Assembly (NCBI GenBank): GCA_030696695.1
Contig: JAUYRP010000002.1
Location: forward strand, 1 to 64,000
Origin: Methylophilus sp.
GTDB taxonomy: Bacteria; Pseudomonadota; Gammaproteobacteria; Burkholderiales; Methylophilaceae
Direction: 5' to 3'
Length of the DNA: 64,000 nt
Shown here: piece by piece, positions 13,286-53,682 of the stretch
How the letters are laid out: each line of letters opens with the position of its first letter
How positions within the stretch are numbered: position 1 is the first letter of the stretch
Notes under the pieces: model-generated
Told to the model about the DNA's origin: nothing
Databases searched by the model: none
The model's input: the letters and a program-made list of their open reading frames with translations, nothing else
Position numbers and translations under genes: made by a program

Positions 13286-13291
13286 TTGAAA

Positions 13292-14928: not shown

Positions 14929-14957
14929 AATTGATTTATCCAGCAGTGGTTGTATTT

Positions 14958-16466: not shown

Positions 16467-16472
16467 GCAGAA

Positions 16473-30038: not shown

Positions 30039-30092
30039 GGCTGTAGAGATTAGCGATAACAATTTTTAATTATTCACTTGGGAGAAATCAAT

Positions 30093-30812: not shown

Positions 30813-30840
30813 TTCATTCATCAAATTAAAGGGAATTGAT

Positions 30841-37500: not shown

Positions 37501-38567
37501 AGTACATTCAACGTAAAACCTCGCTCAAGCTAGCAGAATCTGATTTTGACTTAAGCGTAATCCCTGAACATTTACGCATGAATTTTAGCGTGGTAGATGA
37601 AAAGGGTAGGGAGCTAGGCATGGGCCGTGATTGGCATGCGCTGAAAAAGCAATTAGGCTCTGCCGCGCAACTCACATTCCGTTCCAATTCTCCAAGTATT
37701 GAAAAAACAGGATTAAAGCAGTGGGATTTTGGCGATTTGCCTGAGACGTTAACGTTTACCAAAGATGGGCATCAGCTCACTGGTTATCCTGCGTTAGAAG
37801 ACCAACTGGAAAGTGTGGCGGTCAAATTGTTTGATACGGCGGCAGAGGCCAGCGTAAATCATCGTAAAGGTGTTTGCCGCTTAATGCGTTTTGAGTTAAA
37901 AGAACAGATGAAACAACTGGAAAAGGGGTTACCTAATTTTAACCAATACGCCTTACTCCTGCGTAACATTATTTCACCTGAAGACTTGCGAGAAGACATG
38001 TTGACGGCGATTGCAGACCGCGCCTTTATTGGTGAGGATGATCTGCCCAGAACCAATGACAGCTTTATGAAATTAAAACAGCGTGCGCGTGCCAGATTGC
38101 CTGCTGTGACCGATGCGATTACCCGCCAAGCACAAGCCATTGCCAATGAATACCAAGCCCTAGTGCAACAACAAGCCAAAATGCCAGCGACGGTGAATCG
38201 GCTTAAGCGAGATTGCGAACAGCAAATAGGGTTACTGGTTTACAAAGGATGTTTTACGCAAACACCTTGGGAATATTTGCAGCACGTACCACGTTATTTA
38301 AAAGCGTTACGATTGCGTATTGAAAAACAACCTAGTAACGCTGACCGCGATGGCAAGCATGCCGCTAGTGTGGGGCTGATATGGCAACGCTGGCAAGATA
38401 AAGTCCAAGCACTGTATGCTGCCCACCAACAAGTGCCAACGGCGTTAGCAGAGTATCGCTGGTTAATTGAGGAGTTGCGTGTGTCGCTATTTGCACAAGA
38501 ACTACGCACGCCGTTCCCGGTCTCTACTAAACGTTTAGATAAAGTGTGGTCGGAAATAGCGCACTAG
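34551..38567 (+). CDS. hrpA: ATP-dependent RNA helicase HrpA
   Basis: The product is 1338 aa, full length for the large proteobacterial DEAH/RHA helicase. Motifs in order: GETGSGKTTQLPK (I), QPRRIAARSVA (Ia), DEAHERSLN (II), VTSATIDAERF (III), FLPGEREI (IV), TNVAETSLTVPG (V) and QRAGRCGR (VI). Then come the HA2 and OB regions and the long C-terminal DUF3418 domain (about 750-1330). An acidic insertion (EEDDEEEAIEEAI, near 305) sits between the two RecA-like domains. In E. coli HrpA rescues stalled ribosomes and processes mRNA. The following gene starts 5 bases after its stop. Confidence 0.96.
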   Translation: MSQINPSQFITQLEKQLSTCMLVDRFPLRRRLQQAQALLKQKKPVEKSLADIASALQRSAQKMQVRLTGLPKPEYPSELPVSGKKDDIAAAIQQHQVVIVCGETGSGKTTQLPKICLELGRGVAGLIGHTQPRRIAARSVASRIAQELNSPLGQTVGYKVRFNDKLSESSYIKLMTDGILLAETQGDKFLNAYDTIIIDEAHERSLNIDFLLGYLKQLLPKRPDLKVIVTSATIDAERFSNHFVGAPIIEVSGRTYPVEVRYRPLGKSGFRAKEIAEAENAQFDLDDDTIFGIARKAKTEARWLEEDDEEEAIEEAILDAADDLLRQGDGDILVFLPGEREIRDTADHLRKYQGRSAKLKHVEVLPLFARLSIEDQQKIFKSHSSRRIVLATNVAETSLTVPGIKYVIDAGLARVNRYSPRAKVEQLQIEKISQAAAKQRAGRCGRVSNGICVRLYSEEDFNSRPAFTEPEILRSSLASVILRMAALRLGDVTEFPFIEAPSSRLIADGYLLLQELGAVNEQRQITEVGLQLSKLPLDPRVGRMILAGKREGSLKEILMIASVLSIQDPRERPMDKREAADNAHAKFAGEGSDFMSYLKIWDWYDHALKHKKSNKDLLNQCHQHFLSFLRLKEWRELHAQLLDIVEEMEFKLNDKEANYEQIHKALLAGLLGNIGFKDGEADSYAGARGIRFHVAPGSCLKKTRPKWVMAAELVDTTKLYARCVAKIEPDWIEPLARGLTQSHYADPRWDRKLAQVVAWERVSLYGLTVIPKRRVHYGVIDPVESREIFIREALANMEFDTRAPFFDANKRMIAEIEELEHKARRQDVLVDEHQLFAFYDAIIPQGIVNGAGFEKWRADAEKLSPKLLYLTRDALMRHGASAITEAQFPETMEMDGTALALKYRFEPGHALDGVTATVPLALLNQLDATRADWLVPGMIREKLTALTKSLPKTLRRVCVPVPEFVTGFLEQHASQGALLPTLAEYIQRKTSLKLAESDFDLSVIPEHLRMNFSVVDEKGRELGMGRDWHALKKQLGSAAQLTFRSNSPSIEKTGLKQWDFGDLPETLTFTKDGHQLTGYPALEDQLESVAVKLFDTAAEASVNHRKGVCRLMRFELKEQMKQLEKGLPNFNQYALLLRNIISPEDLREDMLTAIADRAFIGEDDLPRTNDSFMKLKQRARARLPAVTDAITRQAQAIANEYQALVQQQAKMPATVNRLKRDCEQQIGLLVYKGCFTQTPWEYLQHVPRYLKALRLRIEKQPSNADRDGKHAASVGLIWQRWQDKVQALYAAHQQVPTALAEYRWLIEELRVSLFAQELRTPFPVSTKRLDKVWSEIAH

Positions 38568-38572
38568 TACAT

Positions 38573-39478
38573 ATGCAACCTGAAATGCAATTTATCCAAG
38601 AGAATTCAGCAGAAGCGTTTTTAGCCAAGCCGCGCCGCGACCGTGCGATACATATTCGCATCAGCCGCAATACCTTGCTTGCCGTCATTTTTTCTATCGT
38701 GTTTCATGCGCTGCTTTTAATAGTAGTGATCCCGAAACCAGAAATGGCGCCATTGCCACCACCTACCACCATTGACGTCAATCTAGCGCCTCTTCCACAA
38801 GCTGCGCCTATTGTTGCTGAGCCAGCACCGCCGCCGCCCGAGCCTGAATCAACTCCTGCACCTAAGGTGATTGCGCAAAAACCGACGCCTAAGCCCAAAC
38901 CACCTAAGCCTCAGGATTTTTCTGTACCCGAAGTGATGACGCAAAAGGCGCCTAGTCCGCTACCTACGCCTGCACCTAACAAACAGCCACCAACGCCAGA
39001 TGAAGCGCCAGTGGATATGATGGCCATGGTCAATCAGCGACGAGCGCAGCGCGAATCAGTCGAGTCTTATGCTAGGCAGCAGAATGCTGAGGCGGCTGCA
39101 CGTGAACGTGGCCCTAGCCAAGATGAAATCCGTGATAAGCGCATCATGGAAAACTTAAAAGTGGGCACGAATGGTATTTTTGAGGTCAGACGCCTAGATG
39201 TGACGGGGGCCAGCTTTAGCTTTAAAGGTTGGACGGATAACTATAATAACGCCAAGCTAAAGTTTTACGAGGTAGAGCCCCGCAGTGGCCAGGACATCAG
39301 GTTGCTGATGATTCGCCGCATGATTGCTTTAATTCGAGAGCACTACCAAGGAGACTTTGACTGGGAATCACATCGTCTTGGGCGCTCAGTTATCAAATCA
39401 GCGCGTATTGAAGACAGCGCTGAGCTAGAAGACTTTTTGATGCAGGAGTTTTTTGGGCCAAATTATAAAACGCAGTAG
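38573..39478 (+). CDS. Proline-rich TonB-like inner-membrane protein
   Basis: The product is 301 aa from the ATG at 38573. An in-frame ATG 27 bases earlier would overlap hrpA. A short cytoplasmic N-terminus leads to one helix (about 31-52, TLLAVIFSIVFHALLLIVVI). A Pro-rich spacer (PPPPEPESTPAPK, PTPKPKPPKP) follows for ~90 residues, as in TonB. A charged region and a folded C-terminus of ~105 residues come next (FEVRRLDVTGASFSFKGW to FFGPNY). The C-terminal domain lacks the YP box of true TonB energy transducers, so energy transduction is unproven. Coupled to hrpA by position. Confidence 0.8.
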   Translation: MQPEMQFIQENSAEAFLAKPRRDRAIHIRISRNTLLAVIFSIVFHALLLIVVIPKPEMAPLPPPTTIDVNLAPLPQAAPIVAEPAPPPPEPESTPAPKVIAQKPTPKPKPPKPQDFSVPEVMTQKAPSPLPTPAPNKQPPTPDEAPVDMMAMVNQRRAQRESVESYARQQNAEAAARERGPSQDEIRDKRIMENLKVGTNGIFEVRRLDVTGASFSFKGWTDNYNNAKLKFYEVEPRSGQDIRLLMIRRMIALIREHYQGDFDWESHRLGRSVIKSARIEDSAELEDFLMQEFFGPNYKTQ

Positions 39479-40952: not shown

Positions 40953-41348
40953 TCAAAGTGTCGGCATACGCGTACATTGTTCAATGGCTTTTCTACCCAC
41001 TGCCCAAGTAGCATTGTCACCTTTACCCCATAGCGTGTATTGCCCGTTAGTCACTTTAAACCCGCTAGTCACTTTTTGTGAGGGCAGTTCTAACACTGTA
41101 GCGTCTGGCAATGTCACCGTTGCACCAGTGAGTCTTTTTTCCATCCGGTGTGTGCCACCTCTGCCGCCGCGCACGATAGGCACGAATTTATGATTAAACT
41201 CAACGCTCAGCTGCGTACCCATATCGCATTGATATTGCGCTATAGGGTTTGCTTTTGGTGTTGTTGCGCAGGCAGTAGCCAGTAGCGCTGCACTGGTAAC
41301 TAATAGCAATGAATAAAGTTGAGCTGGCGGCCTTGAGATGCGTGTCAT
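40953..41348 (-). CDS. MliC-like lipoprotein (C-type lysozyme inhibitor family)
   Basis: The product is 131 aa from ATG 41348, which has AAAGGGA upstream; an upstream ATG at 41420 gives no signal. A lipoprotein signal ends LLATAC (Cys about 27). The mature part has YQCDMGTQLSVEF, LPDATVLELP, VTSGFKVTNGQYTLWGKGD and a C-terminal Cys (EQCTR), the order of the MliC/PliC fold (C..G..l.v.F...a.v.l......L......sG..Y......f...g..a). MliC proteins inhibit host-type lysozyme in the periplasm. Assignment is from motif order; inhibition is not certain. Confidence 0.72.
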   Translation of the reverse strand: MTRISRPPAQLYSLLLVTSAALLATACATTPKANPIAQYQCDMGTQLSVEFNHKFVPIVRGGRGGTHRMEKRLTGATVTLPDATVLELPSQKVTSGFKVTNGQYTLWGKGDNATWAVGRKAIEQCTRMPTL

Positions 41349-41434
41349 TTTGAGTCCCTTTGAGTCGTACATGATAAATTTAAGCGACTTAAAAGCGGCT
41401 TGTGACATGTTAGTCATCAAAGGCGTATATAAGT

Positions 41435-42451
41435 TTACACTTGCATCAATGCTTTCCTGATTTCTAACTCATCCAAGCCTTTACCAATCAACACAATGCG
41501 GCTTAGCGGTTCGTCTTCATCCCAGCCTTCTAATAAAGTGGGCGGATAAGGGGTAAAGTGTACGGCATGAATCGCCAGCGGAGCAGGCTGGTCTTCTGCA
41601 TGAATAATGCCTTTTAAGCGCAATAAGTGCTCGCCATAGGTTTGGCATAACCATAAAATGCGCGGTTTCAAATCGGCCCAATTCAATGGCTTGGGCATGG
41701 TCACGGTAAAGCTAGTGATGTCTTCGTCATGCGGCTTTTGTGGCAACATGCCACGCGGTTTAGCAGACTTTACTGGCGCACGTAACCAGCGCTGCGGTTC
41801 TGCTTGTTTGCCTGTGGGGTCAAATAGGCCAACGTCAATGATAAATGCCGGGTCTATCTCACCATGCAAAATCTTGTGTTGCGTGGCCCCTGGGTTCAGC
41901 GCAATCAGCTTTTCTTTCAGTGCATCCACTTGCTCTGCACTCACTAAATCAGTTTTGGTAATGAGTAATACATCCGCTACCGCTGCTTGTTTGCGGGCCT
42001 CATTGTGTGTGTCAATTTGTTCTGCACCATAGGCGGCATCAATCGTCACTACCACGGCATCTAACCGATACACCGACTCAATCACAGGCTCATTAAGTAA
42101 GTTACCCAGAATCGGGCCAGGATCCGCCATGCCTGTAGTTTCAATCACCAATCGGTTAAATTGTGGGATGGCTTCCATCGCGCGCTTAAAAAATAGATCA
42201 CGCATGGTATCAGCCAATTCATTACTCAGCGTGCAGCACAGGCAGCCACTTTGAAGCAGCACGGTATTGTCGGCCACATAGCTGCTCTCTACATTTTGCG
42301 CCAAGATATGATCTAAACCAGCTTCTCCCAACTCATTGATGATGACAGCCGTATTTTTCATACCTTCATTCGTAAGAAGTTTATTGAGTAGTGTGGTTTT
42401 GCCCGAGCCTAAAAAGCCAGTAAGTAAAGTAACGGGAATGCGATGGTCCAT
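41435..42451 (-). CDS. COG0523 (CobW/YjiA-like) metallochaperone GTPase
   Basis: The product is 338 aa. The P-loop is GSGKTT at 15-20. The metal-binding CxCC motif GCLCC is at 69-73, with ETTGMADPG (Walker B region) and ITKTDL as the G4 motif. The C-terminal CobW_C domain is present. COG0523 proteins deliver zinc or other metals to client enzymes using GTP. This copy is nearer to YjiA than to ZigA and is shorter than the ZigA homologue at 49826. It diverges from the M14-type hydrolase gene, and a palindrome proposed as a Zur operator lies in the shared intergenic region, 124 bases from its ATG. Confidence 0.9.
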   Translation of the reverse strand: MDHRIPVTLLTGFLGSGKTTLLNKLLTNEGMKNTAVIINELGEAGLDHILAQNVESSYVADNTVLLQSGCLCCTLSNELADTMRDLFFKRAMEAIPQFNRLVIETTGMADPGPILGNLLNEPVIESVYRLDAVVVTIDAAYGAEQIDTHNEARKQAAVADVLLITKTDLVSAEQVDALKEKLIALNPGATQHKILHGEIDPAFIIDVGLFDPTGKQAEPQRWLRAPVKSAKPRGMLPQKPHDEDITSFTVTMPKPLNWADLKPRILWLCQTYGEHLLRLKGIIHAEDQPAPLAIHAVHFTPYPPTLLEGWDEDEPLSRIVLIGKGLDELEIRKALMQV

Positions 42452-42574
42452 AGTTAGCCTAAGGTGAGTAGAGTGATGCGTAATTAAAATAATCGAATCG
42501 TAATTTTTAAGCGGTCTTGATATCGCTAGATGAATGTAGTGGACAAAAAGGTCATTTACTATCTATGCAATATG

Positions 42575-42598
42575 CGCAACAATGTTGCAAATTATAAT
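42575..42598 (+). promoter_or_regulatory. Promoter with a 15-bp palindrome proposed as a Zur operator
   Basis: CGCAACAATGTTGCA (42575-42589) contains the perfect inverted repeat GCAACA-A-TGTTGC. It agrees at 12 of 15 positions with the palindrome upstream of the dksA2 operon. A perfect -10 box TATAAT follows at 42593-42598, so a bound repressor would sit in the promoter spacer. It lies 25 bases before the ATG of the secreted deacylase gene. Confidence 0.6.
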
Positions 42599-42613
42599 GG
42601 GTGCTATTGAATA

Positions 42614-43648
42614 ATGCGATATATTTTACTTGTAATCATGGCTTTCAGTGCGGCTAACTGCTTTGCGGAGTCAATATTTTCTATCATGAACCATGAAATA
42701 AAATCGAATAGTTCCCGTTCATGGATGCAAACCGTTGCGGATACACAATTGCCAATTACCGTGATACATGGCCAATATCCTGGCCCAGTGTTAACGTTAA
42801 CTGCTGGTATTCACGGTGATGAATTCCCAGCCATTTTTGCGTTACAAAAACTACGACAAGCAATTCATCCTGATAGATTGCACGGCACATTGGTTATCGT
42901 ACATCTTGCCAATTTAGAAGGGTTTCATGGCCGACGTGTTGCGTTAAGCCCAGTCGATGAAAAGAATCTAAACAGGATATTTCCTGGCCACGTAGACGGA
43001 ACACTGACTGAGCAAGTTGCATACTTTATGACGCATCAAATTATCAGCAAAACGGATTATTTAATTGATATTCATTCAGGTAGCTGGAATGAAACCTTAT
43101 TGCCACATGTGTACTCCCCCGTCATGAATAAACACGCGCTAGACAAAAAAACATTGGCGTTTGCTAAATCATTAGGCGTGCCACATATCGTTTTATACGA
43201 TGAGCGACCACATGATCCAGAGCACTCAATTTCGTATCCCAACACAGCACAAACCAGAGGAAAGCCAGCGTTAACTTTGGAAGTTGGTCAATTGGGGCAA
43301 AGTGAAGAGCAGGATATTGAGCAGATATATCAAGCCAGTATGCGCGCGATGCGTTACCTAGCCATGTATGATTTAGGCCAGCAAGATAATCCTGATGCAA
43401 TCTCTTCGCATGTGGCGCTATACCGAAAACTAGTGGACGTCCAAAGTCCATTCACTGGGATATTTCGTCCATATACCCAAGTGGGTGAACAAGTTAAACA
43501 AGGGCAAGCGATTGGACAGGTAAGCGATTACTTTGGAAACGTGATGACGACATTATATGCACCAGTCACTGGTACTGTATTAATGCAAAAACAAACCCCG
43601 CCAATCCGTAAGGGCGAATCAACAACAGATATTGCGATAAGCCATTAA
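42614..43648 (+). CDS. Exported M14-type deacylase (succinylglutamate desuccinylase/aspartoacylase family)
   Basis: The product is 344 aa with a signal peptide (hydrophobic about 3-15, possible cleavage after CFA at 18), unusual for this mostly cytosolic family. Predicted zinc ligands are H67 and E70 in GIHGDEF and H154 in DIHSG. NLNRIFPG (118-125) is the substrate-binding stretch and E223 in TLEVG the likely catalytic base. A C-terminal beta domain (FTGIFRPYTQVGEQVKQGQ) resembles a lipoyl-like fold found in these proteins. It should cleave an N-acyl bond in the periplasm. The promoter overlaps a proposed Zur box. Substrate unknown; a peptide or metallophore is possible. Confidence 0.85.
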   Translation: MRYILLVIMAFSAANCFAESIFSIMNHEIKSNSSRSWMQTVADTQLPITVIHGQYPGPVLTLTAGIHGDEFPAIFALQKLRQAIHPDRLHGTLVIVHLANLEGFHGRRVALSPVDEKNLNRIFPGHVDGTLTEQVAYFMTHQIISKTDYLIDIHSGSWNETLLPHVYSPVMNKHALDKKTLAFAKSLGVPHIVLYDERPHDPEHSISYPNTAQTRGKPALTLEVGQLGQSEEQDIEQIYQASMRAMRYLAMYDLGQQDNPDAISSHVALYRKLVDVQSPFTGIFRPYTQVGEQVKQGQAIGQVSDYFGNVMTTLYAPVTGTVLMQKQTPPIRKGESTTDIAISH

Positions 43649-43649
43649 T

Positions 43650-44927
43650 TTATGGATGAACTGGCGCTGATGCTTGGTTTTCAAATGTTGGCATATTGAC
43701 TAAATCGTTCACCGTCATAGCCTTTTCCTCAAACAAATACGGATACAAAAAGTGTCTGAGCTGGGTGTGAAAGTCAGTGATACGCCGACGATGCGTGAGC
43801 AGGTGTGTCACATTGCTTTGCGCGATGTTCTCAAGGCTGTGTTGCACCCATAGACTAGGCAGCACCAATCCTAACTTCTTAGTAGTTTGATCGCGTAATG
43901 CTAATGTCTGTTCTCTATCGGTTACTTGCGCTTGTAATTGTACATCTGCCATATGTTGAAAGGCGTAGTACCATTTCCAGTGAAAGCGTCCGGTCACCGC
44001 TGGCGTATCTTGCCATTGTGGATAATGCACATAGAATGGATTGAGCGTATCGGTTTTGGGCTGGTCCCACGCATTATGGACCAGTTGACGGTGTTGCAAA
44101 GCAATTTGGCTACCATCCTGTATTGGGTACTGTTGGTGTAGCCAAAGTTGCGCAAGATTCGGCAGTGCTACACACAACACCAGCCAAATACTTGCAAGTA
44201 GCATGGCATTTAAACTAGCGTTCATTGCTTGCTTGCGCAAACTGATGAATAGACAGATGACCACCCAAAACAGGGTATACAGCGCGGTAATGGCAATCAC
44301 TGTGATGAGAGGCTTTAACGAAAGCGATTGCGCAATTGCAAAAAACACCAATGGAATGATTAAGCTCAGCAAAATCAGTACCCATCTAAGCAATACACGT
44401 CTTGCCCAAAACACTTTAGGATTTGCAATCAAACTGTTTAAAAAGACTAAGCGTTGTGCTTGAAACTCGCTGGCTTTTAAGTCATGTAGTAAAGCAATAC
44501 ATATTAACGGAGTGAAAAACACCAGCCAAAAAGCATAGTCAAAACTACCCAACATCACATATTCGGGATGGTGTGATTCACCATCATATAGCTGGCCTTG
44601 CAACCCAAGTAAGCGAATGCGCTGGACATAAGGTGTCACTAAACGATTGCCTAAGGCTAAAAAACTCCATTCGGTGGGGTGTTGGTAAACGTTATGAAAG
44701 AGGTAATAACCGATTTCACCTGCGTCGATTTGCGCACGTGACGCGTAGTCTGCCTGTTGGCTTTGATGCCTGAGATCCGCCTCTAATTGTGCATGGCTGA
44801 TCTGCTCGCGAATATGGTGAATGTTTTGCCAGCCATTATGTAGACTGAGCCACGTCAGCAATAAGCTGATGCACAATAACAGTAAAATGCTGCGCTGTTT
44901 GAGTAAATGTGTCAGTTCTTGTTTCAT
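43650..44927 (-). CDS. ABC-2 type permease subunit, DUF3526 (second of a pair)
   Basis: The product is 425 aa. A first helix lies at about 14-30, a long periplasmic loop (about 35-125) follows, then five helices between 130 and 275. A second soluble segment (280-425) contains PFYVHYPQW, a conserved part of DUF3526 proteins. It starts inside the stop of its partner (4-base overlap) and ends 1 base from the convergent deacylase gene. Pairs of DUF3526 permeases with one ATPase and a TonB receptor recur as a set, with no assigned substrate that I know of. The large periplasmic loops suggest contact with a periplasmic partner. Confidence 0.82.
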   Translation of the reverse strand: MKQELTHLLKQRSILLLLCISLLLTWLSLHNGWQNIHHIREQISHAQLEADLRHQSQQADYASRAQIDAGEIGYYLFHNVYQHPTEWSFLALGNRLVTPYVQRIRLLGLQGQLYDGESHHPEYVMLGSFDYAFWLVFFTPLICIALLHDLKASEFQAQRLVFLNSLIANPKVFWARRVLLRWVLILLSLIIPLVFFAIAQSLSLKPLITVIAITALYTLFWVVICLFISLRKQAMNASLNAMLLASIWLVLCVALPNLAQLWLHQQYPIQDGSQIALQHRQLVHNAWDQPKTDTLNPFYVHYPQWQDTPAVTGRFHWKWYYAFQHMADVQLQAQVTDREQTLALRDQTTKKLGLVLPSLWVQHSLENIAQSNVTHLLTHRRRITDFHTQLRHFLYPYLFEEKAMTVNDLVNMPTFENQASAPVHP

Positions 44928-46333
44928 GTGCGGTGCATTATTCTTGAGAGCAGTAACAGCGGTAATAAAATCCAGGCAAGTAACACTGCAATAGAGGTGA
45001 TGATAGCGGTTTGACTGACGTCAAGTGCGGCGAGTGAAATTGTTGGGCGTGGCGCTTTTTTCCAAAAATCGGCCGATACGCGCGTGTTTTTATCGTCATG
45101 TCTTTGCACTTGATGCGTATGTATTTGGTTGAGATATTGAATCAGTCGATAACGACGGTCCTCGGCCTGGCGAATAAATGCTAAATGGTGTGTTAGATCG
45201 CTGCCGCTACTGGCCATTTGTAAATATTGCAATGCGAGTGCTGGTGACAACCATAGCCATTGTCTGATGGTTGCGTTTTGCTTAGCCAATTGTTGTTCAT
45301 GTAACGCTTGTTGCTCACGATAAACTACCGTGGTTAAGCGTTCCCCTTCTTGCATTAACAACCCGTTGTAATTGAGTGGTAGGTCCTCAATGCGATCAAC
45401 GCCATGCGCTTTGAGTAGATTGGATTTAAACGTAGCAAAATGCGGATCATCAGGGTTGTGACTATCCCCAATCGCTTTCAATTTGATTTCAGCATGGTAT
45501 TCCGCTTCGGTACGTGGCTGCGTAGGATGCATAATCTGCGACACGTTGGCTAAGCCGCGCGGGAAAATAATACACACGCAGACCCAGCACAACAACAATG
45601 CTAATAACCCACTATGCAGTTGCTGATTACTCCATGAAATCGCGACCACCAGTAAGCACCAGCCAGCGATATACAGGCTTTGCCCCAGCAACATGGTAGA
45701 GAGTCTCACTAGGGCTTGCTCACTTCCCCAAATCCAAAAGAGTACAAGAAGCGCTTGTGCTAGCAGCAAGATGGCCAGTGGAATAAATAAAGCCAGCCAT
45801 TTGCCAGTAGCAATTTTCCATGCAGGCATGCCATTCCCGCGCATAAAAGCGAGTGTGCCCCCGATTTTTTCTCCAGTGATGGTGGCGTAACCAATCATGA
45901 TGAGAAAGAGTGGCATCCACCATTGCACAATCATGGCTGGGGTAATAATGGGAAAGCGTCCCGCACTGGTGGCTTCTGTCGCAGGGTTAAAATTGGCACT
46001 GTTTAAACGATGACCCTCTAAATAAACGAGATGCCCAGACTGATCAAGAATGCCAGGCTCTATTACGCTTAGCGGGTGGATGGGTCTTGCCACAAAGTCA
46101 CCATAATGCGAAACCCGATGTGGGTGGCGATCAGGTTGTGATTCCCAATCGTGCAGACTGCGCTCAGTGACTTGCGTAACGGTGCGTGCATGATCTTGCC
46201 AATGATGATGCGCAGCGATGGCTGAGATCGCCCAAAGTACGATTAACACGAGCAGCAATAAAACAGGAATGCGCGCATGCCACAGGCGGCGCCATTCGTT
46301 ATACATCATTAGCATGACAGGTGATGATTTCAT
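44924..46333 (-). CDS. ABC-2 type permease subunit, DUF3526 (first of a pair)
   Basis: The product is 469 aa. The topology mirrors its partner: one helix at about 20-42, a periplasmic loop to ~135, five helices (about 138-265), a ~170-residue periplasmic domain and a final helix (about 445-465). The N-terminus ends the cytoplasmic part with NEWRRLWHARIPVLL, typical of NosY/ABC-2 exporters. Overlap of 4 bases with both the ATPase upstream and the second permease downstream shows a tightly coupled transporter. Direction of transport (efflux versus outer-membrane energising) cannot be told. Confidence 0.83.
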   Translation of the reverse strand: MKSSPVMLMMYNEWRRLWHARIPVLLLLVLIVLWAISAIAAHHHWQDHARTVTQVTERSLHDWESQPDRHPHRVSHYGDFVARPIHPLSVIEPGILDQSGHLVYLEGHRLNSANFNPATEATSAGRFPIITPAMIVQWWMPLFLIMIGYATITGEKIGGTLAFMRGNGMPAWKIATGKWLALFIPLAILLLAQALLVLFWIWGSEQALVRLSTMLLGQSLYIAGWCLLVVAISWSNQQLHSGLLALLLCWVCVCIIFPRGLANVSQIMHPTQPRTEAEYHAEIKLKAIGDSHNPDDPHFATFKSNLLKAHGVDRIEDLPLNYNGLLMQEGERLTTVVYREQQALHEQQLAKQNATIRQWLWLSPALALQYLQMASSGSDLTHHLAFIRQAEDRRYRLIQYLNQIHTHQVQRHDDKNTRVSADFWKKAPRPTISLAALDVSQTAIITSIAVLLAWILLPLLLLSRIMHRT

Positions 46334-47040
46334 GCTTGGCCTTGATACAAGCGTTTGAGATTGTCTAGCGTGAGTGAACTTTGCGCTATTGACACTGGTT
46401 GCAAGCGACCACTTGCTAACATAGTCAAACGGTCTGAAAACGCCATAGCGGACAACACATCATGTGTGACAACCAATACGCCCATGCCAGAAGATTTGCA
46501 TTGCAAAATCAGTTGATTCAGCTCTTCAGTCGCCTGCGGGTCCAAGCCAGAATTCGGCTCATCTAATAGTAGTAATTTGGCTTGTTTTGCTAAAGCTAGC
46601 GCTAGCATCACTTTTTGTTTCATGCCTTTAGAATAGGTTTGGCAAGGGTCATGCCAAGCGCGCTCCGGCAGTCCTGCTTGTGACAAACAGTCGCTGATTT
46701 CTGCACGCTCAGGGTTATTGTCAAGACTCAGAAAATAGCGGATATTTTCAATGGCCGAAAGATGTCCATACACTGCTGGTTGTTCAGGCACATAGGCCAA
46801 ATGCGCTCTAGCTAAATGCGGCTGATGAAAAACACTGCTATCGGCAATGCGTACATCACCCTGTATGTTAGCTGACGTGTCAGCCAGCCCCAAAATGCAC
46901 TTCAGTAAACTGGATTTACCGGCGCCGTTACTCCCTAGTACAGCCACCACCTCGCCATTGTGCAGTTCCAAATTGACCTGATTCAGCACAACGTGATTCT
47001 CGTAACTTAGCGAAAGCTGGGCTATGGATAATAAAGGCAT
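46330..47040 (-). CDS. ABC transporter ATP-binding protein for the DUF3526 permeases
   Basis: The product is 236 aa. Walker A is GSNGAGKSS, the signature is YSKGMKQKV (a degenerate LSGGQ, as in ABC-2 exporters such as CcmA/NosF), and Walker B is LLLLDEPNSGLDP, followed by VVTHD. The start at 47040 has GGTGA 7 bases upstream and gives the usual MPLLSIAQLSL; an ATG at 47055, fused to the TonB receptor stop as TAATG, would add five residues. It is co-transcribed with the receptor and the two permeases. Confidence 0.9.
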   Translation of the reverse strand: MPLLSIAQLSLSYENHVVLNQVNLELHNGEVVAVLGSNGAGKSSLLKCILGLADTSANIQGDVRIADSSVFHQPHLARAHLAYVPEQPAVYGHLSAIENIRYFLSLDNNPERAEISDCLSQAGLPERAWHDPCQTYSKGMKQKVMLALALAKQAKLLLLDEPNSGLDPQATEELNQLILQCKSSGMGVLVVTHDVLSAMAFSDRLTMLASGRLQPVSIAQSSLTLDNLKRLYQGQA

Positions 47041-47054
47041 GTTCAATTCACCCA

Positions 47055-49052
47055 TTAAAAATCGACACTTGCGGATAATGTAAAGTTACGGCCCGCCCCA
47101 GGTGAGTGAATCGAGTCAACGACTGCACTGTTCACACTTTGGTCGAATACATATTCGTAAAACTTATCGAATATATTATTGGCTTGCAAACTAAGTGTTC
47201 CCCAACTGGTTTTGTAATCGATATTCGCATTAGTGATCGTATACGCGCCAAACTTGCCACCAATATTGGCTTCATTTAAGTAATAGGCACCTTGTCTATC
47301 TACGTGCACACGTGCCACTAGCTTATCGCTATGGGCATATTGTAGCCCGACTGATGCCGTATGGTCAGGAATACCGCGTAAGTCATTACCTGCAAAGTTT
47401 TGATTGGTAGTAGATGCTTTTGTAATTTCAGTAAACACTTTAGAGACATTGGCCCACATAGACCACTGGTCGTTAAATGCGATATCAAAGCTCGCATCGA
47501 TGCCTTTGCGTTCTGTCTCACCTACATTTTGACCAGTGCCATCAATTACCACAAACTCATCTTGTGCTTCTTGCTGCCAGTAAGAGACACGCGTGTTGAG
47601 TTTTCCCCAATTGCTTTTTAAGCCAAGCTCCCAGCCATCGTTAATCGCGACATCACGCGCATTGGTATTGCCCGTAGTAAAAGCGTCACCACCAAAAGGA
47701 TGTTGGAACGAACGGCCATAGTTAGCGAAAATGGTTTGTGTGTCTGTGACGTTAGCGAACACGTTAAGTTTGGGTTGCATAATCGTCCCAAAATCAAACA
47801 TGCGACGATTAGTAGCGACATCATTCACTACAAAAGCGCGATTTGCATCACCCTCTAGACGGTCAGCGCGTATTGCCGCATTCCAACGCAGCCAGCTGAT
47901 TGGGGTGTTTTCAATTTGCACAAACGCACCTTGGGATTCAAAATCAAAGTCGAAATCGCGGCGCGTTTGTGTGCCGCGGAAGCGTTGCTCAAGCACTTGC
48001 TGCTTTTCAATATCGTAGCCAGATTGTAAGGTCCAATCTGGGTGTATGCGCCAGTTAAACTTTGCGATAAACCCCTGCATATTCTGATCATCAAAACGGT
48101 TTTCAACCAATAATTGACTGGCCGAAAAGCGTACATCCCTGATGCGTTCCACCCCTTGGCTGTAGGCTTTAAGGCTTAGGTCTGTATTCTCATTAAAAAA
48201 ATAGTCGTAGTGCAAACTGATGTGTTTAAACTCTTTTTGTCCACCGTCTTGATCTGCATAATCAGCAGAACTTCGTGGGTTGTCACGCGCCTCTTGTTTA
48301 GTCAAATAGCCAGGCGCTTCTAACGCGTTGTATTTGCCATATTTGGTGCTAAGGGCAAGGCTGGATGTTTCAAAGTCGTATTGCCAGCGGCCAGAAAGAG
48401 CAATCTTTTCATTACTGGTGTGATCACGATAGCCATTGCCAGCGCGGTAACCAAAAGCATAATTTTGGGTAAACTCGTCAGACTTATCACCAAAGTAGCC
48501 TTGTAATTCTCGCGTATCAAAGCTACCAATGGTTGCTTGTAACTGCTTGCCCGTATCCTTGCGTGTTTCCACTTTATAGTTACCGGCCGTAGCAAATAAG
48601 CCTGTTGTTGGGTCGCTGGTGCCTTTGAATACTTGAATGTTTTGTATATTGGTCGGAAACAAATAATCCATCTCGTTATAACCATTGTGCAGATTCGAAG
48701 GAATACCATCCACCAATAGTTTGGCATGAGGTGTAATGCCGTCTCCGGCAAATCCTCGAATAGAGATGTCGGTATTAATAATCCCTTGGTTGAATCTGGA
48801 CAGCACAACCCCGGGCGTTTTTGTATAAAGTTCCAGCGTATCTGTGACATGCTCATATTCCAACTCATCACGTGTGATCACATCGACAGAGCCAGCCAAG
48901 GCTTTGTCGACATTCAGCAGTTCTTGTTTCCCAATCACTACAATACTGTCCAGCGCTACCTCATTGCTGGTGTCTGAAAAGGCGGGTGTTGTTGGTAAAA
49001 ATATCAATGCAATTGCGCTGGCGACAGTAGTTGGTTTCATATTTTTTTTCAT
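47055..49052 (-). CDS. TonB-dependent outer-membrane receptor
   Basis: The product is 665 aa. The signal peptide ends near PAFS (about 26). The TonB box region is DSIVVIGK, the plug runs from LNVDKALAGSVDVITRDEL to about 165 with INTDISIRGFAGDG and LLVDGIPS, then a 22-strand barrel ends in ...LSASVDF with the terminal Phe needed for outer-membrane insertion. Nothing in the loops identifies a ligand; no His-rich loop like that of ZnuD is present. It heads the ABC/DUF3526 genes and follows DUF1826 after 90 bases. Zinc or metallophore import is a guess from context. Confidence 0.92.
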   Translation of the reverse strand: MKKNMKPTTVASAIALIFLPTTPAFSDTSNEVALDSIVVIGKQELLNVDKALAGSVDVITRDELEYEHVTDTLELYTKTPGVVLSRFNQGIINTDISIRGFAGDGITPHAKLLVDGIPSNLHNGYNEMDYLFPTNIQNIQVFKGTSDPTTGLFATAGNYKVETRKDTGKQLQATIGSFDTRELQGYFGDKSDEFTQNYAFGYRAGNGYRDHTSNEKIALSGRWQYDFETSSLALSTKYGKYNALEAPGYLTKQEARDNPRSSADYADQDGGQKEFKHISLHYDYFFNENTDLSLKAYSQGVERIRDVRFSASQLLVENRFDDQNMQGFIAKFNWRIHPDWTLQSGYDIEKQQVLEQRFRGTQTRRDFDFDFESQGAFVQIENTPISWLRWNAAIRADRLEGDANRAFVVNDVATNRRMFDFGTIMQPKLNVFANVTDTQTIFANYGRSFQHPFGGDAFTTGNTNARDVAINDGWELGLKSNWGKLNTRVSYWQQEAQDEFVVIDGTGQNVGETERKGIDASFDIAFNDQWSMWANVSKVFTEITKASTTNQNFAGNDLRGIPDHTASVGLQYAHSDKLVARVHVDRQGAYYLNEANIGGKFGAYTITNANIDYKTSWGTLSLQANNIFDKFYEYVFDQSVNSAVVDSIHSPGAGRNFTLSASVDF

Positions 49053-49098
49053 ATATGTATTTATATTAAGTAGGGATTCATCAAATTTAAATGCGTCA

Positions 49099-49113
49099 CG
49101 TTACTTATTAACG
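49099..49113. promoter_or_regulatory. Weak 7-1-7 palindrome before the TonB receptor gene
   Basis: CGTTACT-T-ATTAACG has six of seven arm pairs complementary and lies 47 bases upstream of the receptor ATG. It has the geometry of a Fur-family operator but only partly resembles the two stronger palindromes of the locus, so it may be chance. Confidence 0.25.
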
Positions 49114-49142
49114 GGCGCTTCTCTTGCTTACGTGGGCGGTAT

Positions 49143-49829
49143 CTACCACAGTGCATCCATCGCCAACACCACTCTGATTTGGTTGGGTGCAACCGCTGGC
49201 GAACGGTGAATCACTCCACGCTGTTGATTGCCTTGCCACAAGCTACCTTTTAATAGTGCAACGGCAAAAGCAGACGATTGGTGCAGGCCTGCGCAATCAA
49301 GTATTAACCCAGAGTCGGCATCACACACGTTTGCTGTGCTTATACCCAGTTTGCTGCGGTCTGCGTAGCGGTCATCCAGCCACTCGGTACCTGGCCCTAG
49401 ATAGGTACATAACAGCCGAATGCCAGTGCGGTCCACATGAAATTTAGGGCACATGGCGCCATGCAATACTTCCAAACGCACGCCAATTTCTGGGCAGCCA
49501 ATGAGGTCGCTATACAGGTGGGCAAGCAAATCGATGTCGGCTAGCAAGGCGTCGCGCCCTGGTTGGGCAAGCAATAAACGTTGTGCCAGCACTGGTCCGT
49601 AAACCGATTCTCCAGCCGACAACATCACTTGAAAACCTCTGCCTAATGAAGGGGCGATGGATTGCAGATATTGTGTGATGGCCTCGGACTGTGGACGCTC
49701 TACCACGGTGATTTGTTGCTCATGCGCAAAAATACTTAACAGCTCCAGCGCATCAAAATCCACAGCGGTTGGCGCAGTGCTTTTGTAAACACTGTTTTTT
49801 GGATGAGTGCTTTGCGTGGCAGTTATCAT
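49143..49829 (-). CDS. DUF1826 protein, possible non-haem iron or zinc enzyme
   Basis: The product is 228 aa, cytosolic. The conserved core is [20 protein letters not shown] (127-146) and [18 protein letters not shown] (194-211). H131, D133 and H208, followed by R219, match the HxD...H...R layout of 2-oxoglutarate/Fe(II) dioxygenases; H124 and C127 are also invariant-looking. That enzyme link is my inference. The gene overlaps zigA by 4 bases (ATGA), so it is produced with a zinc-starvation GTPase. Family members commonly lie beside COG0523 genes. Confidence 0.85.
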
Positions 49830-51070
49830 GCCACCACCTCTAATACTCGGCTGTCATCTTCCTCTGTTGTGGTTTCTAGTTGCACCGACCACTTTGGAAA
49901 AGGGTCGGCTAGCTGTTTCCAACTGTCCATGCCCAAGGCAATTTCGGCTTCGGTCAATAAGCAGGCATCAAACCGTGCGGTGAGGGCTGCTTTGTCCATG
50001 TGCATGCCGATGATGACCAGTTCTTGTTGACGATCGCCGTAGGGTTCCACCCAACGCGATTTGATATGTTGAAAACTATCAGCATCTTCTGGCCAGTATT
50101 CATTGGGCGTAGCCACCCACCACATACCCGCCAACTCGGTACGTGTGACGGCACCCGCTTGTGACCAAGTGGCGCAAAAATCTGGGCGTGAGGCAATCCA
50201 GTAACGGCCTTTTGAGCGCACTACACCAGGCCATTCGGTATTCAACCATTGCCATAAGCGTTGCGGATGAAAGGGTTTGCGTGCGCGATAGACAAAGCTA
50301 GAGATGCCGTACTCTTCCGTTTCAGGCACATGCTCGCCACGCAGTTCTTGCAACCAACCTGGTGCTTCGGACGCTTGGTCAAAATCAAACAAGCCCGTGT
50401 TCATGATGCGCTCCAGTGGTACTTTGCCAAAAGTGCTGTGCAATAATTGCGCGCGCGGGTTCAGGGTTTTTAAGATGCCTTCCAGTTGTCCAATTTCGGC
50501 CGGGGTCATCAAGTCGGTTTTGTTCAGGACCAACACGTCGCAGAACTCGATTTGGTCCACTAATAAATCCACCACTGCACGTTCGTCTTCGTCACCCAAC
50601 GATTCACCGCGTGCAGCCAGCATGTCTTGTGAGCTATAGTCTTTTAAAAAGTTATAACCATCCACCACTGTTACCATGGTGTCGAGTTGCGCCACATCGC
50701 CTAGTGACACGCCGTCATCATCGGCAAAGGTAAATGTTTCGGCAATAGGCAGAGGCTCTGAAATGCCTGTGGTTTCAATCAACAAATAATCAAAACGGTT
50801 TTCTTTGGCCAAGCGGGTGATTTCGACCAATAAATCCTCACGCAAGGTACAGCAGATGCAGCCGTTGCTCATTTCCACTAATTTCTCTTCTTGGCGTGAC
50901 AGTTCTGCGCCACCATCACGCACCAATTGCGCGTCAATATTCACTTCAGACATGTCATTGACAATCACAGCGACGCGCTTGCCTTCGCGATTATTTAAAA
51001 TATGGTTGAGGAGCGTGGTTTTACCAGCGCCTAAAAAGCCAGACAACACGGTGACGGGAAGCTTTTGCAT
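49826..51070 (-). CDS. zigA: ZigA-type COG0523 zinc metallochaperone GTPase
   Basis: The product is 414 aa. P-loop GFLGAGKTT at 11-19, switch region [10 protein letters not shown], the metal-binding CxCC GCICC at 70-74, [10 protein letters not shown] and the G4 motif NKTDL (in [10 protein letters not shown]) are visible. A long CobW_C domain includes HPQRLWQWL and [13 protein letters not shown]. This longer form with SEVNID is the ZigA/YeiR-type subgroup controlled by Zur and thought to move zinc to essential enzymes. It follows dksA2 by 9 bases and overlaps DUF1826. The dksA2-zigA order recalls the pair in Pseudomonas aeruginosa. Confidence 0.92.
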
Positions 51071-51079
51071 CGCGATTCC

Positions 51080-51487
51080 TTAATGATTAAATTGTCGTTC
51101 ACGGCGCTCATGATGTTCTTGCGCCTCTAAACATAGTTTGGTGGTGGGTCTGGCGATAAGCCGCAATAGACCAATAGGCTCGCCAGTGTCAGCGCAGTAG
51201 CCATAACTGCCATCTGTAATACGCGCCAATGCACTGTTAATGGATTTCAGATATTTTCGTTCACGGTCACGGGTTCTCAACTCCAATCCGCGCGACTCCT
51301 CTTGTGTCGCACGGTCAGCAGGATCAGCAGCAGCATCAACCTCGCGTAAATGTTCGCTGGTATGGTTGAGGTTGTCATGCAATTGCGCCAGCTCTTGTAA
51401 TAACAAGGCTTTGAAAAATGCCAGTTGCGTAGCATTCATATAGTCGCTGGCTGGCATGCTGAGTAACTCTGGTGCGGTGTGAGACAT
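51080..51487 (-). CDS. dksA2: DksA2-like RNA polymerase-binding protein lacking a full zinc finger
   Basis: The product is 135 aa. The N-terminal coiled coil (about 20-90, tip DAAADPADRA where DksA has its DxxDxA motif) enters the RNA polymerase secondary channel. The C-terminal finger, four Cys in DksA, here has C98-xx-T101 and C119-xx-A122, so two ligands are missing. The same two-Cys form is known for the P. aeruginosa DksA2 that replaces DksA when zinc is short. It is the first gene after paired palindromes and is followed by zigA. No strong Shine-Dalgarno precedes it. Confidence 0.9.
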   Translation of the reverse strand: MSHTAPELLSMPASDYMNATQLAFFKALLLQELAQLHDNLNHTSEHLREVDAAADPADRATQEESRGLELRTRDRERKYLKSINSALARITDGSYGYCADTGEPIGLLRLIARPTTKLCLEAQEHHERRERQFNH

Positions 51488-51500
51488 GCAATCTTAATCG

Positions 51501-51553
51501 TGCAATAAAGTTGCATTTTATAGATTAAAAGATATTAATGCAACTAAGTTGCA
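51501..51553 (-). promoter_or_regulatory. Paired 15-bp palindromes flanking the dksA2 promoter, proposed Zur operators
   Basis: TGCAACTAAGTTGCA (51539-51553) is a perfect 7-1-7 inverted repeat. TGCAATAAAGTTGCA (51501-51515) is the same with two arm mismatches. On the minus strand TTGCAT inside the first can serve as -35, and TATAAA at 51517-51522 as -10, so the repeats bracket the promoter. Zur is encoded just upstream. The shape fits a Fur-family repressor; identification as Zur sites is inference. Confidence 0.68.
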
Positions 51554-51617
51554 ATTAATAAAGCTGGGCGCTAAATGAATAGTAGGGCTAGATCAATAAC
51601 GAGAATGGTTAAAGCGA

Positions 51618-52088
51618 TTAATTATTGAGATGCTTGCCTAAAGAAGCACATTGCAGGCAGATACCTTTGATGTTGATATCAATGCTATCCACTTGGAATT
51701 TATCGAGCGCGCTTTGTGGAAAACGCGGTTCTAGTTCATGAATACATGTGATTTGACCGCACAGTTTGCAATGCAAATGCGCATGATGATGATTTTGCAG
51801 TGCTTGTGGCTGACTGTTTTTATTTGTAGCGGGTAAAAAGCGTGGTTGAGACAGCTGAAACTTCCACGCGCGATTTTCACCTGAAATTTTATGCACCAAA
51901 TCATGTTCTGTCAGCCAATCCAACACGCGATAAATCGTCACGCGGTCAAATTCTTTCTGGCCTGATAAACGCTCTAAAATTTCGGGATGACTTAATGCAC
52001 TTTCAGCATCTGCAATGGTGTTCAACACGGCGAGACGCGCTTTGGTGGGGCGTAGCCCTGCGTTGATGATGCGTTCTTGTATGTTCAT
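51618..52088 (-). CDS. zur: Zinc uptake regulator Zur (Fur family)
   Basis: The product is 156 aa from ATG 52088; a longer frame overlaps selO. The winged helix covers residues 8-80, with the recognition helix region EFDRVTIYRVLDWL. Then HHHAHLHCKLCGQ holds metal ligands. The structural zinc site is C107-xx-C110 and C144-xx-C147. His-rich DHHHAH-like features, the linkage to dksA2/zigA and the absence of peroxide-type motifs favour Zur over Fur or PerR. Represses zinc-scavenging genes when zinc is plentiful. It lies 7 bases after selO and 130 bases before the dksA2 start, across the palindromes. Confidence 0.88.
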   Translation of the reverse strand: MNIQERIINAGLRPTKARLAVLNTIADAESALSHPEILERLSGQKEFDRVTIYRVLDWLTEHDLVHKISGENRAWKFQLSQPRFLPATNKNSQPQALQNHHHAHLHCKLCGQITCIHELEPRFPQSALDKFQVDSIDINIKGICLQCASLGKHLNN

Positions 52089-52095
52089 ACAATAA

Positions 52096-53682
52096 TTATG
52101 AACTACAGGACAACATAGAACAACCCGCTTTATGTCTTGCCCAGTCTGGTCGTTTTTCTTCAAAGTGTGCCATGCCGGCTTGCTCTGTATATGGATTGCG
52201 CAAAACTTGATGCAAAGTTTCTAATAAGCTGGTGTCATTATTCTCAGCTAAATCAATGGCTTGTTGTGCCAAATAGTTGCGTAATACATAGCGTGGATTA
52301 TGCGTTTGCATTTGTGCAAGTCTTGCTTGTACAGACTGTGATGCATGTTGAACACGCTGGCAATAATGGGTAAGCCATTCAGCAAAGTCAGCACTAAAGT
52401 TAGCGTAGCCTTGCTCTGTATAGAACGCAATCTTGAGTGTTTCAACTTCTGGTGCGTGAATATCTAGCTTTGCCAAATGCGTAAAGAATAAGGTCATGTC
52501 TACTTCTGCACGCATCATCAACTCAAAGCAGCGGTTGACCATTTCACCGTCACCATCTTGCCAATCACCGATACCAAATTTGCCTGCAAAAGATTGTGTC
52601 AGTTGCGTCACGTATGTGCTGTCATATTGCTCAATGGCCAGTGCTAAACCCTCTGTATTCGGTAAGATAGCCGCCAGCGCATCGGCCAAACGTTCTAAAT
52701 TCCAGCGCGCAATGTCAGGCTGACGACCGAAACAGTAACGTTTGCCTTGCGCATCTGTAGTGTTGGGTGTCCAGCCTGGGTCAAAGTTATCTACCCAGCC
52801 ATAAGGCCCGTAATCAATGGTAAGACCAAGAATGGACATATTATCGGTATTCATCACGCCATGCACAAATCCTACGCGCATCCAATGCGCAACCATGACA
52901 GCCGTACGTTCACAAATTTCCATAAACCATGCGTTAACAAGCTCGGGCGTTAATTGACTGTCAGCTAGTTTGTAAGGTTGTGAGACATACCAATCATGAA
53001 AGTCACGGTCAATCGTAAAAGCAATCAACTGCTTGAGTAAACTAAGCTCGCCACGGCTAGCCAATATTTCAAAATGTCCAAAACGCGTAAAAGAAGGCGC
53101 TACACGGCAGACAATTGCTCCCGTTTCTAATTGCGGGTTGCCATCGTAAAACATATCACGGACCACTTTATCGCCAGTAGTCACAAGACTTAATGCGCGT
53201 GTGGTGGGTACGCCCAAATGGAACATCGCTTCAGAACATAAATATTCGCGTAAGCTCGAACGTAGCACAGCACGGCCATCTGCTCGTCTGGAGTAGGGCG
53301 TTGCACCTGCGCCTTTGAGTTGTAGTTCAAATCGTTTATCGTTATTGATTAACTCGCCCAGTAAAATGGCACGCCCATCACCCAATTGCCCAGCCCAATT
53401 GCCAAACTGATGACCACCATAGCGCGTTGCGTAGGCTTGCATACCCGGCAACACCTCGTTACCACTCAATGCATTGAGCATGGCTGGATCTTGCATGTCA
53501 CTTGTGCTCAGGCCAAGCATATTGGCAACTTCGGGAGAATATGCCAGCAATGTTGGTGCACGCACTTGATTCGGTTGGACCAACGACCAAAGCGCATTGG
53601 GCACTTGACGCGTAAAGTTGTCGGTCTCGGGGTCGCCAGGTAGTTCGCGCAACCAGCGATTATCAAATTGCAGTGTTTTCAT
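52096..53682 (-). CDS. selO: Protein adenylyltransferase SelO (YdiU/UPF0061 family)
   Basis: The product is 528 aa, full length for SelO. The pseudokinase motifs show: YATRYGGHQFGNWAGQLGDG (glycine-rich loop region), FELQLKGAGATPYSRRADG, and GVMNTDNMSILGLTIDYGP, equivalent to the catalytic N and DFG. SelO transfers AMP to Ser/Thr/Tyr and helps against oxidative stress. The C-terminus ends CSMLSCSS, the redox Cys position that is selenocysteine in animals. Its placement directly before zur is unexpected for this family and may put it in the same transcript. Confidence 0.94.
   Translation of the reverse strand: MKTLQFDNRWLRELPGDPETDNFTRQVPNALWSLVQPNQVRAPTLLAYSPEVANMLGLSTSDMQDPAMLNALSGNEVLPGMQAYATRYGGHQFGNWAGQLGDGRAILLGELINNDKRFELQLKGAGATPYSRRADGRAVLRSSLREYLCSEAMFHLGVPTTRALSLVTTGDKVVRDMFYDGNPQLETGAIVCRVAPSFTRFGHFEILASRGELSLLKQLIAFTIDRDFHDWYVSQPYKLADSQLTPELVNAWFMEICERTAVMVAHWMRVGFVHGVMNTDNMSILGLTIDYGPYGWVDNFDPGWTPNTTDAQGKRYCFGRQPDIARWNLERLADALAAILPNTEGLALAIEQYDSTYVTQLTQSFAGKFGIGDWQDGDGEMVNRCFELMMRAEVDMTLFFTHLAKLDIHAPEVETLKIAFYTEQGYANFSADFAEWLTHYCQRVQHASQSVQARLAQMQTHNPRYVLRNYLAQQAIDLAENNDTSLLETLHQVLRNPYTEQAGMAHFEEKRPDWARHKAGCSMLSCSS

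Follow-up and report, generated by a model that had tools for sequence, protein, structure and literature searches.

A probable Zur-controlled zinc-starvation island with a ZnuK/ZnuGHI-type acquisition system in Methylophilus

Described relatives and gene content of the island

In Caulobacter crescentus, loss of zur raises expression of the ABC transporter genes znuGHI (CC1518-1520) and the receptor gene znuK (CC1517) 12- to 41-fold (PMC4176598). The same study, published in 2014, reported a shared Zur box, Zur gel shifts, array data, and zinc-responsive reporters for znuK/znuGHI, and its authors termed znuGHI a putative high-affinity uptake system (PMC4176598). In the available part of a review, znuGHI is grouped with the ABC-type zinc uptake systems (PMC6103462). 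The present analysis concerns a gene cluster at 41435–53682 of a 64,000-nucleotide stretch of Methylophilus sp. DNA (positions 1 to 64,000 of contig JAUYRP010000002.1, assembly GCA_030696695.1; hereafter, the window), whose host genome comprises 2.98 Mb in 34 contigs. This cluster is probably a Zur-controlled zinc-starvation island with a ZnuK/ZnuGHI-type acquisition system. The assignment draws on gene content, operators, conserved gene order, homology to znuGHI, and a partial NosY-like fold, all obtained by computation.

The znuK/znuGHI locus resembles that of the window in that an ATPase and two DUF3526 permeases lie beside a TonB-dependent receptor, under Zur control in Caulobacter. It was located through the exact published 19-base box, which is present in two of 61 genomes of that genus and is flanked by the receptor, the ATPase, and the two permeases. 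Between the window and Caulobacter, the ATPases share 40% identity, the first permeases 33.6% (E 1e-78), and the second permeases 31.7% (E 6e-83). The permeases of a Caulobacter relative match DUF3526, and PF12040 was found in only one of 14 control genomes, that of Caulobacter vibrioides. Judged from these alignments, the window transporter is homologous to znuGHI. The arrangement differs, however: the receptor and ABC genes of Caulobacter diverge around one canonical box, whereas those of the window are co-directional behind dksA2-zigA-DUF1826 and are associated with a different palindrome.

Other described systems share parts of this gene set. In the available sections of PMC2770081, Zur-linked COG0523/DksA/DUF1826 clusters have a yciC/zigA-type COG0523 gene, a cysteine-poor DksA, and DUF1826 in common with the window, and an outer membrane protein appears in a figure legend as well; unlike in the window, no DUF3526 transporter or M14 deacylase is named in those sections. 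DUF1826 is also named in an excerpt of a Francisella zinc paper (PMC5786701). The cobW1 operon of Cupriavidus metallidurans is a COG0523 operon preceded by two Zur boxes and expressed only under zinc starvation, which makes it a precedent for paired boxes at one operon, but its genes differ (folE, cysS, queD, allB, and a carbonic anhydrase), and no such transporter is named in the accessible part of that source (PMC10882993). ZnuABC is alike in being a Zur-controlled zinc acquisition system that involves an ABC transporter; it differs in that no ABC-3 permease was found in the window's genome and no binding protein in the island. The NosDFY copper machine serves copper-site assembly, and NosFY gives both the best fold and the best PDB profile matches of permease 1. 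Yet the annotated island genes include no nosD, nosZ, or nosL, permease 1 has large regions outside the core, and the setting is one of zinc.

The original prediction, made from the letters of the window, had named the genes of the island and proposed a theme of zinc shortage. Domain and NCBIfam matches confirm all the named genes (Table 1), and DksA indeed has half of its zinc cysteines, only Cys98 and Cys119 being retained. The regulator is named Zur only by its context, as a putative assignment; its PF01475 match spans profile positions 2–75 of 121, HxH and CxxC motifs are present, and its start is probably 52088 rather than the TTG at 52163 of the open reading frame (ORF) listing. The YjiA-like protein falls below the cut-off of its best NCBIfam model (195 vs. 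361 bits) and is therefore called COG0523 only; relatives with 78–79% identity adjoin the cassette in loci L038 and L052. The ATPase and permease genes overlap or abut, the receptor gene abuts the ATPase gene, and 90 bp separate it from the DUF1826 gene. Since no operator of the receptor's own was seen at 49053–49142 and no terminator-like site is listed on that strand in the DUF1826–receptor gap, read-through from dksA2 into the receptor gene is assumed, and the transcript structure of the island is to that extent presumed. A promoter scan gave fewer sites than were found in shuffles and was not used.

Table 1. Features of the island in the window
Feature	Position	Strand	Evidence and remarks
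YjiA-like COG0523 GTPase	41435-42451	-	PF02492, PF07683; divergent from M14
Operator 3, CGCAACAATGTTGCA	42575-42589	.	1 mismatch; 25 bp 5' of M14, 124 bp 5' of yjiA
AstE/AspA-type M14 deacylase	42614-43648	+	PF24827, 107 bits; HGDE, DIHSG, LEVG motifs
DUF3526 permease 2 (ZnuI-like)	43650-44927	-	PF12040
DUF3526 permease 1 (ZnuH-like), HPHxxxH motif	44924-46333	-	PF12040
ABC ATPase (ZnuG-like)	46330-47055	-	PF00005
TonB-dependent receptor, metallophore/siderophore type	47055-49052	-	PF00593, PF07715
DUF1826 protein	49143-49829	-	PF08856, 173.9 bits
zigA, COG0523 zinc metallochaperone GTPase	49826-51070	-	NCBIfam NF038288, 685 bits (cut-off 600)
dksA2, DksA with 2/4 zinc cysteines	51080-51487	-	TIGR02420, 126 bits (cut-off 115.5)
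Operator 2, TGCAATAAAGTTGCA	51501-51515	.	1 mismatch; 38 bp from operator 1
Operator 1, TGCAACTAAGTTGCA, putative Zur box	51539-51553	.	0 mismatches; sole exact site genome-wide
zur (putative), Fur-family regulator, 156 aa	51618-52088	-	Pfam FUR (PF01475), 46.9 bits (cut-off 23.1)
selO, neighbor upstream of zur, outside the zinc set	52096-53682	-	PF02696

The palindromic operator and its conservation in the family

TGCAACNNNGTTGCA consists of two 7-base halves flanking one base, as is typical of Fur-family boxes. The palindromes proposed in the original prediction are real: TGCAACNNNGTTGCA is matched at 51539 and 51501, both 5' of dksA2, and at 42575, 5' of M14. The excess in the window alone is weak (three sites with at most one mismatch vs. 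0.72 expected, a count of three being reached in five of 100 shuffles); support for the operator is thus taken from its conservation in the family and from the genome-wide list, not from the window count. Across the genome, TGCAACNNNGTTGCA occurs at ten places with at most one mismatch, six within ORFs (L007–L012) and four at gene starts, and all four gene-start sites (51501, 51539, 42575, and contig 2:139580) precede zinc genes. The site at contig 2:139580 coincides in part with the earliest start codon available to a small ORF with His codons, and the ATG that follows lies behind the site. The TonB receptor encoded after this ORF has ZnuD as its best PDB match (E 2e-56), and a one-mismatch box also lies 5' of the same pair, small His ORF and receptor, in another genome of the genus (L197). 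Read backwards, TGCAACNNNGTTGCA is also common in the genome at two mismatches (113 vs. 181 matches); therefore, looser matches say little. Regulation of these operators would fall to this Zur. The canonical gammaproteobacterial Zur box was tried as well and gave no signal in the window (26 matches with at most three mismatches vs. 35 expected).

Permease 1 is present in 19 of 187 family genomes, and its surroundings were taken from the 18 genomes other than that of the window. In 15 of these 18 loci, belonging to three genera, permease 1 is 42–75% identical and the order of the island is the same, i.e., the first genes, zigA, (DUF1826), receptor, ATPase, permease 1, and permease 2, often with a convergent M14 gene behind; a second receptor is inserted in L047 and L050. 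The window included, there are 16 island loci, 14 of them testable for boxes, the operon head lying beyond the fetched stretch in L041 and L050. At least two boxes with no more than two mismatches are found at the operon head in all 14, and in 13 of these loci the spacing of the pair is exactly 38 bp, compared with 54 bp in L039. Seven of the 14 (L040, L042, L044, L045, L046, L048, and L051) have an additional box closer to the first gene, at a distance of 16 bp from the second. All ten M14-bearing loci, again with the window, have a box with at most two mismatches 15–38 bp before M14. The sole other sites with at most one mismatch in the family loci fall within selO (L051) and rnb (L052). The original prediction had counted SelO in the zinc set; no box with two or fewer mismatches precedes selO, and it was left out of the set for this reason.

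The first gene after the boxes varies among the testable loci: it is dksA2 in six (the window, L040, L044, L045, L046, and L048), a ZIP transporter gene in another six (L038, L042, L043, L047, L049, and L052), and zigA in L039 and L051. A ZIP gene is also present behind permease 2 in L039 and at the cut end of L050, so that it is part of the set in eight of the 15 fetched family loci, and Pfam confirms ZIP in all three proteins tested. The ZIP gene at L052:14993-15736 (Methylotenera) is split by a stop into two pieces, through either a broken gene or an assembly error. A zur counterpart was recognized by motif in ten of 12 family loci scanned and also in L039. The window receptor shares 84% and 76% identity with its counterparts in L038 and L039, which are from other genera, but only 56–65% with those of its own genus, suggesting receptor gene exchange between genera.

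Three genomes of another genus (Methylobacillus-type) have a permease with just 26–35% identity, and no match to zigA, dksA2, or DUF1826 was found within the surrounding 20 kb. The original prediction would have been contradicted by related genomes in which the TonB/ABC set is remote from zinc genes and under another operator. The set of these genomes does stand apart, yet with the same operator: in all three, a box with 0–1 mismatches lies approximately 100–150 bp 5' of the ATPase gene. One of these genomes has eight sites with at most one mismatch. Two of the eight, 38 bp apart, precede dksA2-zigA-COG0523 (by eye) beside zur; another lies at the ATPase gene and another beside genes for a TonB receptor and an exported protein that contains histidines; two of the six sites examined are without a clear zinc gene. 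In a Methylobacillus relative, a one-mismatch operator at L196:5050 lies near genes for a small MerC-like (by eye) membrane protein and a Gly/His-rich exported protein, which are possible further Zur targets.

DUF3526 cassettes in distant bacteria and the role of the transporter

In a scan of species genomes, from which the best 80 of 182 relatives were kept, the cassette of receptor, ATPase, and two permeases was encountered again in sphingomonads, caulobacters, xanthomonads, pseudomonads, Acinetobacter, and Burkholderiales. Loci L078–L147 number 70, two of them from Methylobacillus, and several of the contigs are short. A DUF1826, ZigA- or YjiA-type gene is nearby in ten of the 68 non-Methylobacillus loci, and three more have a Fur-family gene. 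The canonical Zur box used for promoters was TGTTATNNNATAACA, with a threshold of at most two mismatches in 12 and expectations from dinucleotide shuffles; shuffles that failed keep the original sequence, which makes the control slightly stricter. Although the loci are mutually non-independent, the box is present in 19 of 32 divergent receptor/ATPase promoters vs. 0.3 expected, and in three of eight loci without a receptor upstream (0.08 expected), one of the eight being from Methylobacillus. L102 and L123 were dropped from this comparison (region of 2179 bases), and two of the co-directional regions are only 62–63 bases long. The box occurs without mismatch in Acinetobacter stercoris and Acidovorax. 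Massilia phyllostachyos has a second, more distant receptor and DUF3526 cassette beside the first (L136:14873-19279). The operators and the relatives agree with the proposed zinc-starvation theme, and the conserved order, the operator shared when the cassette stands apart, and the canonical boxes of distant relatives place the receptor/ABC-DUF3526 genes within it.

The AlphaFold model of permease 1 has a mean pLDDT of 86, and its first 11 PDB matches are all NosDFY, NosFY, or NosDFYL chains, with target TM values of 0.40–0.70. The best fold match, 7o0y_D (NosY), is also the best sequence-profile match (E 0.0012); as a single sequence, permease 1 gave no meaningful PDB match. Its fold as modeled appears to be partially NosY-like. 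Five of its histidines, His70, His72, His76, His108, and His292, are located in segments between the helices of the core that, by analogy with NosY, would be extramembrane.

The DUF3526 ABC complex could itself be an inner-membrane high-affinity zinc importer that replaces ZnuABC and is partnered at the outer membrane by the TonB receptor. This is a plausible explanation, albeit one held with considerable doubt. It agrees with the uptake label of the Caulobacter authors (PMC4176598) and with the listing in the available part of the review (PMC6103462). No ABC-3 (ZnuB-type) permease was detected in the window's genome at E 0.001, while 13 of 14 control genomes were positive, Caulobacter vibrioides being the sole control without a match. 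In an order sample, permease 1 (E 1e-20) is accompanied by ABC-3 (E 1e-9) in five of the 19 genomes that have it, and 154 of all 300 genomes have ABC-3 (P 0.021, ignoring kinship). Fifty other cassette genomes were checked, from 50 of the 70 loci L078–L147; 22 have an ABC-3 match, of which seven are strong and full-length, and 15 are partial (20–31 bits) and were read as cross-matches. On the other hand, these co-occurrence counts ignore kinship, and in the family sample (none of 19 permease-1 genomes vs. 16 of 187) P is 0.17, kinship again being ignored. Such an importer would also be without a binding protein. Moreover, the ZIP genes of the family loci, and the single ZIP of the window's genome, at which no box is found, indicate that another importer exists.

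Alternatively, the ABC complex may export a zinc-binding compound, which would then be recovered by the TonB receptor and processed by the M14 protein. Export is the usual function of ABC-2 permeases, the island encodes no binding protein, and the receptor profile fits both FoxA and CntO, the receptor of pseudopaline. The best profile matches of the receptor are CntO, FoxA, and the enantio-pyochelin receptor, all receptors of metal chelates; the profile takes in three receptors that are just 19–22% identical. Its TIGR01783 score of 112.6 bits is under the cut-off of 223.5, a search with its sequence alone gave no PDB match at 1e-5, and the receptor model, with a pLDDT of 63.5, was not used for a fold search. 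A TonB-type energy transducer-like protein, with one hydrophobic stretch, a long Pro-rich region, and no Pfam match, is encoded at 38546-39478, 2 kb from the island, and could serve the receptor. The relatives of M14 are deacylases; its best NCBIfam model is DoeB (102 bits, under the cut-off of 403), its PDB match 3cdx (E 8e-29), and a signal peptide, judged by eye, is likely. An action of M14 on the zinc ligand is conjectural. It would be unusual for cells short of zinc to produce a zinc enzyme, and this could also point to another metal. Against export of a compound, no biosynthesis gene is found among the annotated island genes; this explanation is rated as unlikely. The opine dehydrogenase of staphylopine-type metallophores was not detected in the genome, but none of the controls gave a match either, so that the search was uninformative.

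Assessment and proposed mechanism

Several points weigh against a Zur-controlled island with a ZnuK/ZnuGHI-type system. The curated Zur model NF008646 scores the regulator at only 27.3 bits (cut-off 167), i.e., it is weakly Zur-like. The window receptor is not of the ZnuK type, with 24–27% identity over parts; it is treated here as exchangeable and not as defining for the ZnuGHI-type ABC family. No substrate-binding protein is encoded in the island, ABC-2 permeases being mostly exporters, and the ABC unit is less needed as an importer because ZIP genes belong to the same set. The NosY fold matches have E values of 1.7e-3 to 0.12, none reaching 0.001, with rmsd values of 13–21 Å, and the NosY profile match is confined to positions 135–254 of permease 1. 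His70, His72, His76, and His108 are present in 84 of 84 permease sequences and His292 in 83, but the conservation of His70 and His108 is partly due to selection, since both lie within peptides used for the scan. Among ten permease-1-type sequences not chosen by these peptides, His72 and His108 are present in all and His76 in nine, while His70 and His292 vary; the ten are from eight phylum-sample loci (one being L055 of the scan) and the second L136 cassette, two permease-2-type rows having been left out.

Two promoter counts also weigh against it. Only four of 28 co-directional loci, one of them from Methylobacillus, have a canonical box before the receptor (0.1 expected). In a phylum sample drawn blind to zinc, PF12040 was found in nine of 249 genomes, and a canonical box with at most two mismatches in just two of the eight non-window loci, L171 and L176. 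The L171 box is at the start of the receptor frame, and L176 also holds two YjiA-type genes; L172, from the same genome as L083 of the species scan, has DUF1826, and L169 has a Fur-family gene. L170 and L173–L175 have neither a Zur box with two or fewer mismatches nor a match to the zinc-gene profiles used, and their permease scores are low, as are those of L171 and L176. These four loci would suit the explanation that the TonB/ABC genes are mere neighbors serving another metal or nutrient. However, the order is kept in three genera, the operator is the same when the cassette stands apart, Zur boxes and DUF1826/ZigA/YjiA-type genes accompany it in other bacteria, and znuGHI provides a precedent, making this explanation very improbable.

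For the zinc-starvation island, substrate, direction of transport, and the role of M14 may be envisaged as follows. In the presence of zinc, Zur would occupy the paired operators before dksA2 and the one before M14, and both units would be shut. In its absence, the zinc-sparing DksA, the ZigA chaperone, DUF1826, and the ZnuK/ZnuGHI-type system would be made. The metallophore-type TonB receptor would bring a zinc complex into the periplasm, where the NosY-like ABC complex of two DUF3526 permeases would use ATP to strip zinc from the complex at the conserved histidines, which are assumed to be on the periplasmic side. The preferred next step, given close to an even chance, is a periplasmic hand-over of zinc to another importer, e.g., a ZIP protein; import through the complex is rated as a lesser possibility, and export of the ligand as rather improbable. 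The exported M14 deacylase would break or recycle the ligand. More generally, DUF3526 permease pairs of alpha-, beta-, and gammaproteobacteria might represent a class of ABC machines that resemble NosFY but handle zinc, often Zur-linked and without a binding protein. They would extract zinc from complexes delivered by the receptor, at a conserved extramembrane histidine site, and would make ZnuABC dispensable in some lineages; this reading is possible but less likely than not.

Novelty, other features of the window, and significance

The original prediction regarded the addition of a DUF3526 transporter, an exported M14 deacylase, and SelO to the dksA2-zigA pair as undescribed. This stands only in part: a Zur-linked DUF3526 transporter is known (znuGHI, PMC4176598), whereas the merger with dksA2-zigA, the operator of the family's own, the other receptor type, and M14 in the regulon look new. 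The same is true of the permease, whose partial NosY-like fold in the model and conserved histidines look new. In the literature searched, DUF3526 is unnamed, znuGHI is named in three papers, and znuK is named together with Zur in four; when ABC-2, Zur, TonB-dependent receptors, and zinc limitation were searched in combination, the Caulobacter study was the sole result (PMC4176598). By title, nothing related was found for Methylophilus, Zur, and zinc, in a search whose scope did not extend to subscription papers and RegPrecise, so that a published Zur motif for this family may exist, nor for Zur, NosY, and zinc, with the possible exception of two genome papers.

Other parts of the window contain further features. 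Directly downstream of yjiA, at 40953-41420, lies the gene of a lipoprotein-like protein that contains the lysozyme inhibitor domain MliC. A polysaccharide biosynthesis cluster at 2962-19024 comprises epimerases, a C-methyltransferase, a flippase-like protein, a glycosyltransferase, and ManC; it is island-like, with a G+C content of 37–39% at 6–16 kb and a tRNA-Arg at 831-906. Two neighboring large RTX-repeat proteins are encoded at 26964-33132, the first with lamin-tail and endonuclease/phosphatase domains and the second with a 5'-nucleotidase C-terminal domain, and this pair resembles secreted nucleic-acid or phosphate scavengers.

The cassette raises the question of how zinc is scavenged in the 43 of 50 cassette genomes without a clear ZnuB-type permease. 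With DUF3526 tied to Zur across classes, and with the NosY-like fold and the histidines of the permease, an unnamed domain becomes a testable zinc machine, and the Methylophilaceae gain a proposed Zur operator and regulon.

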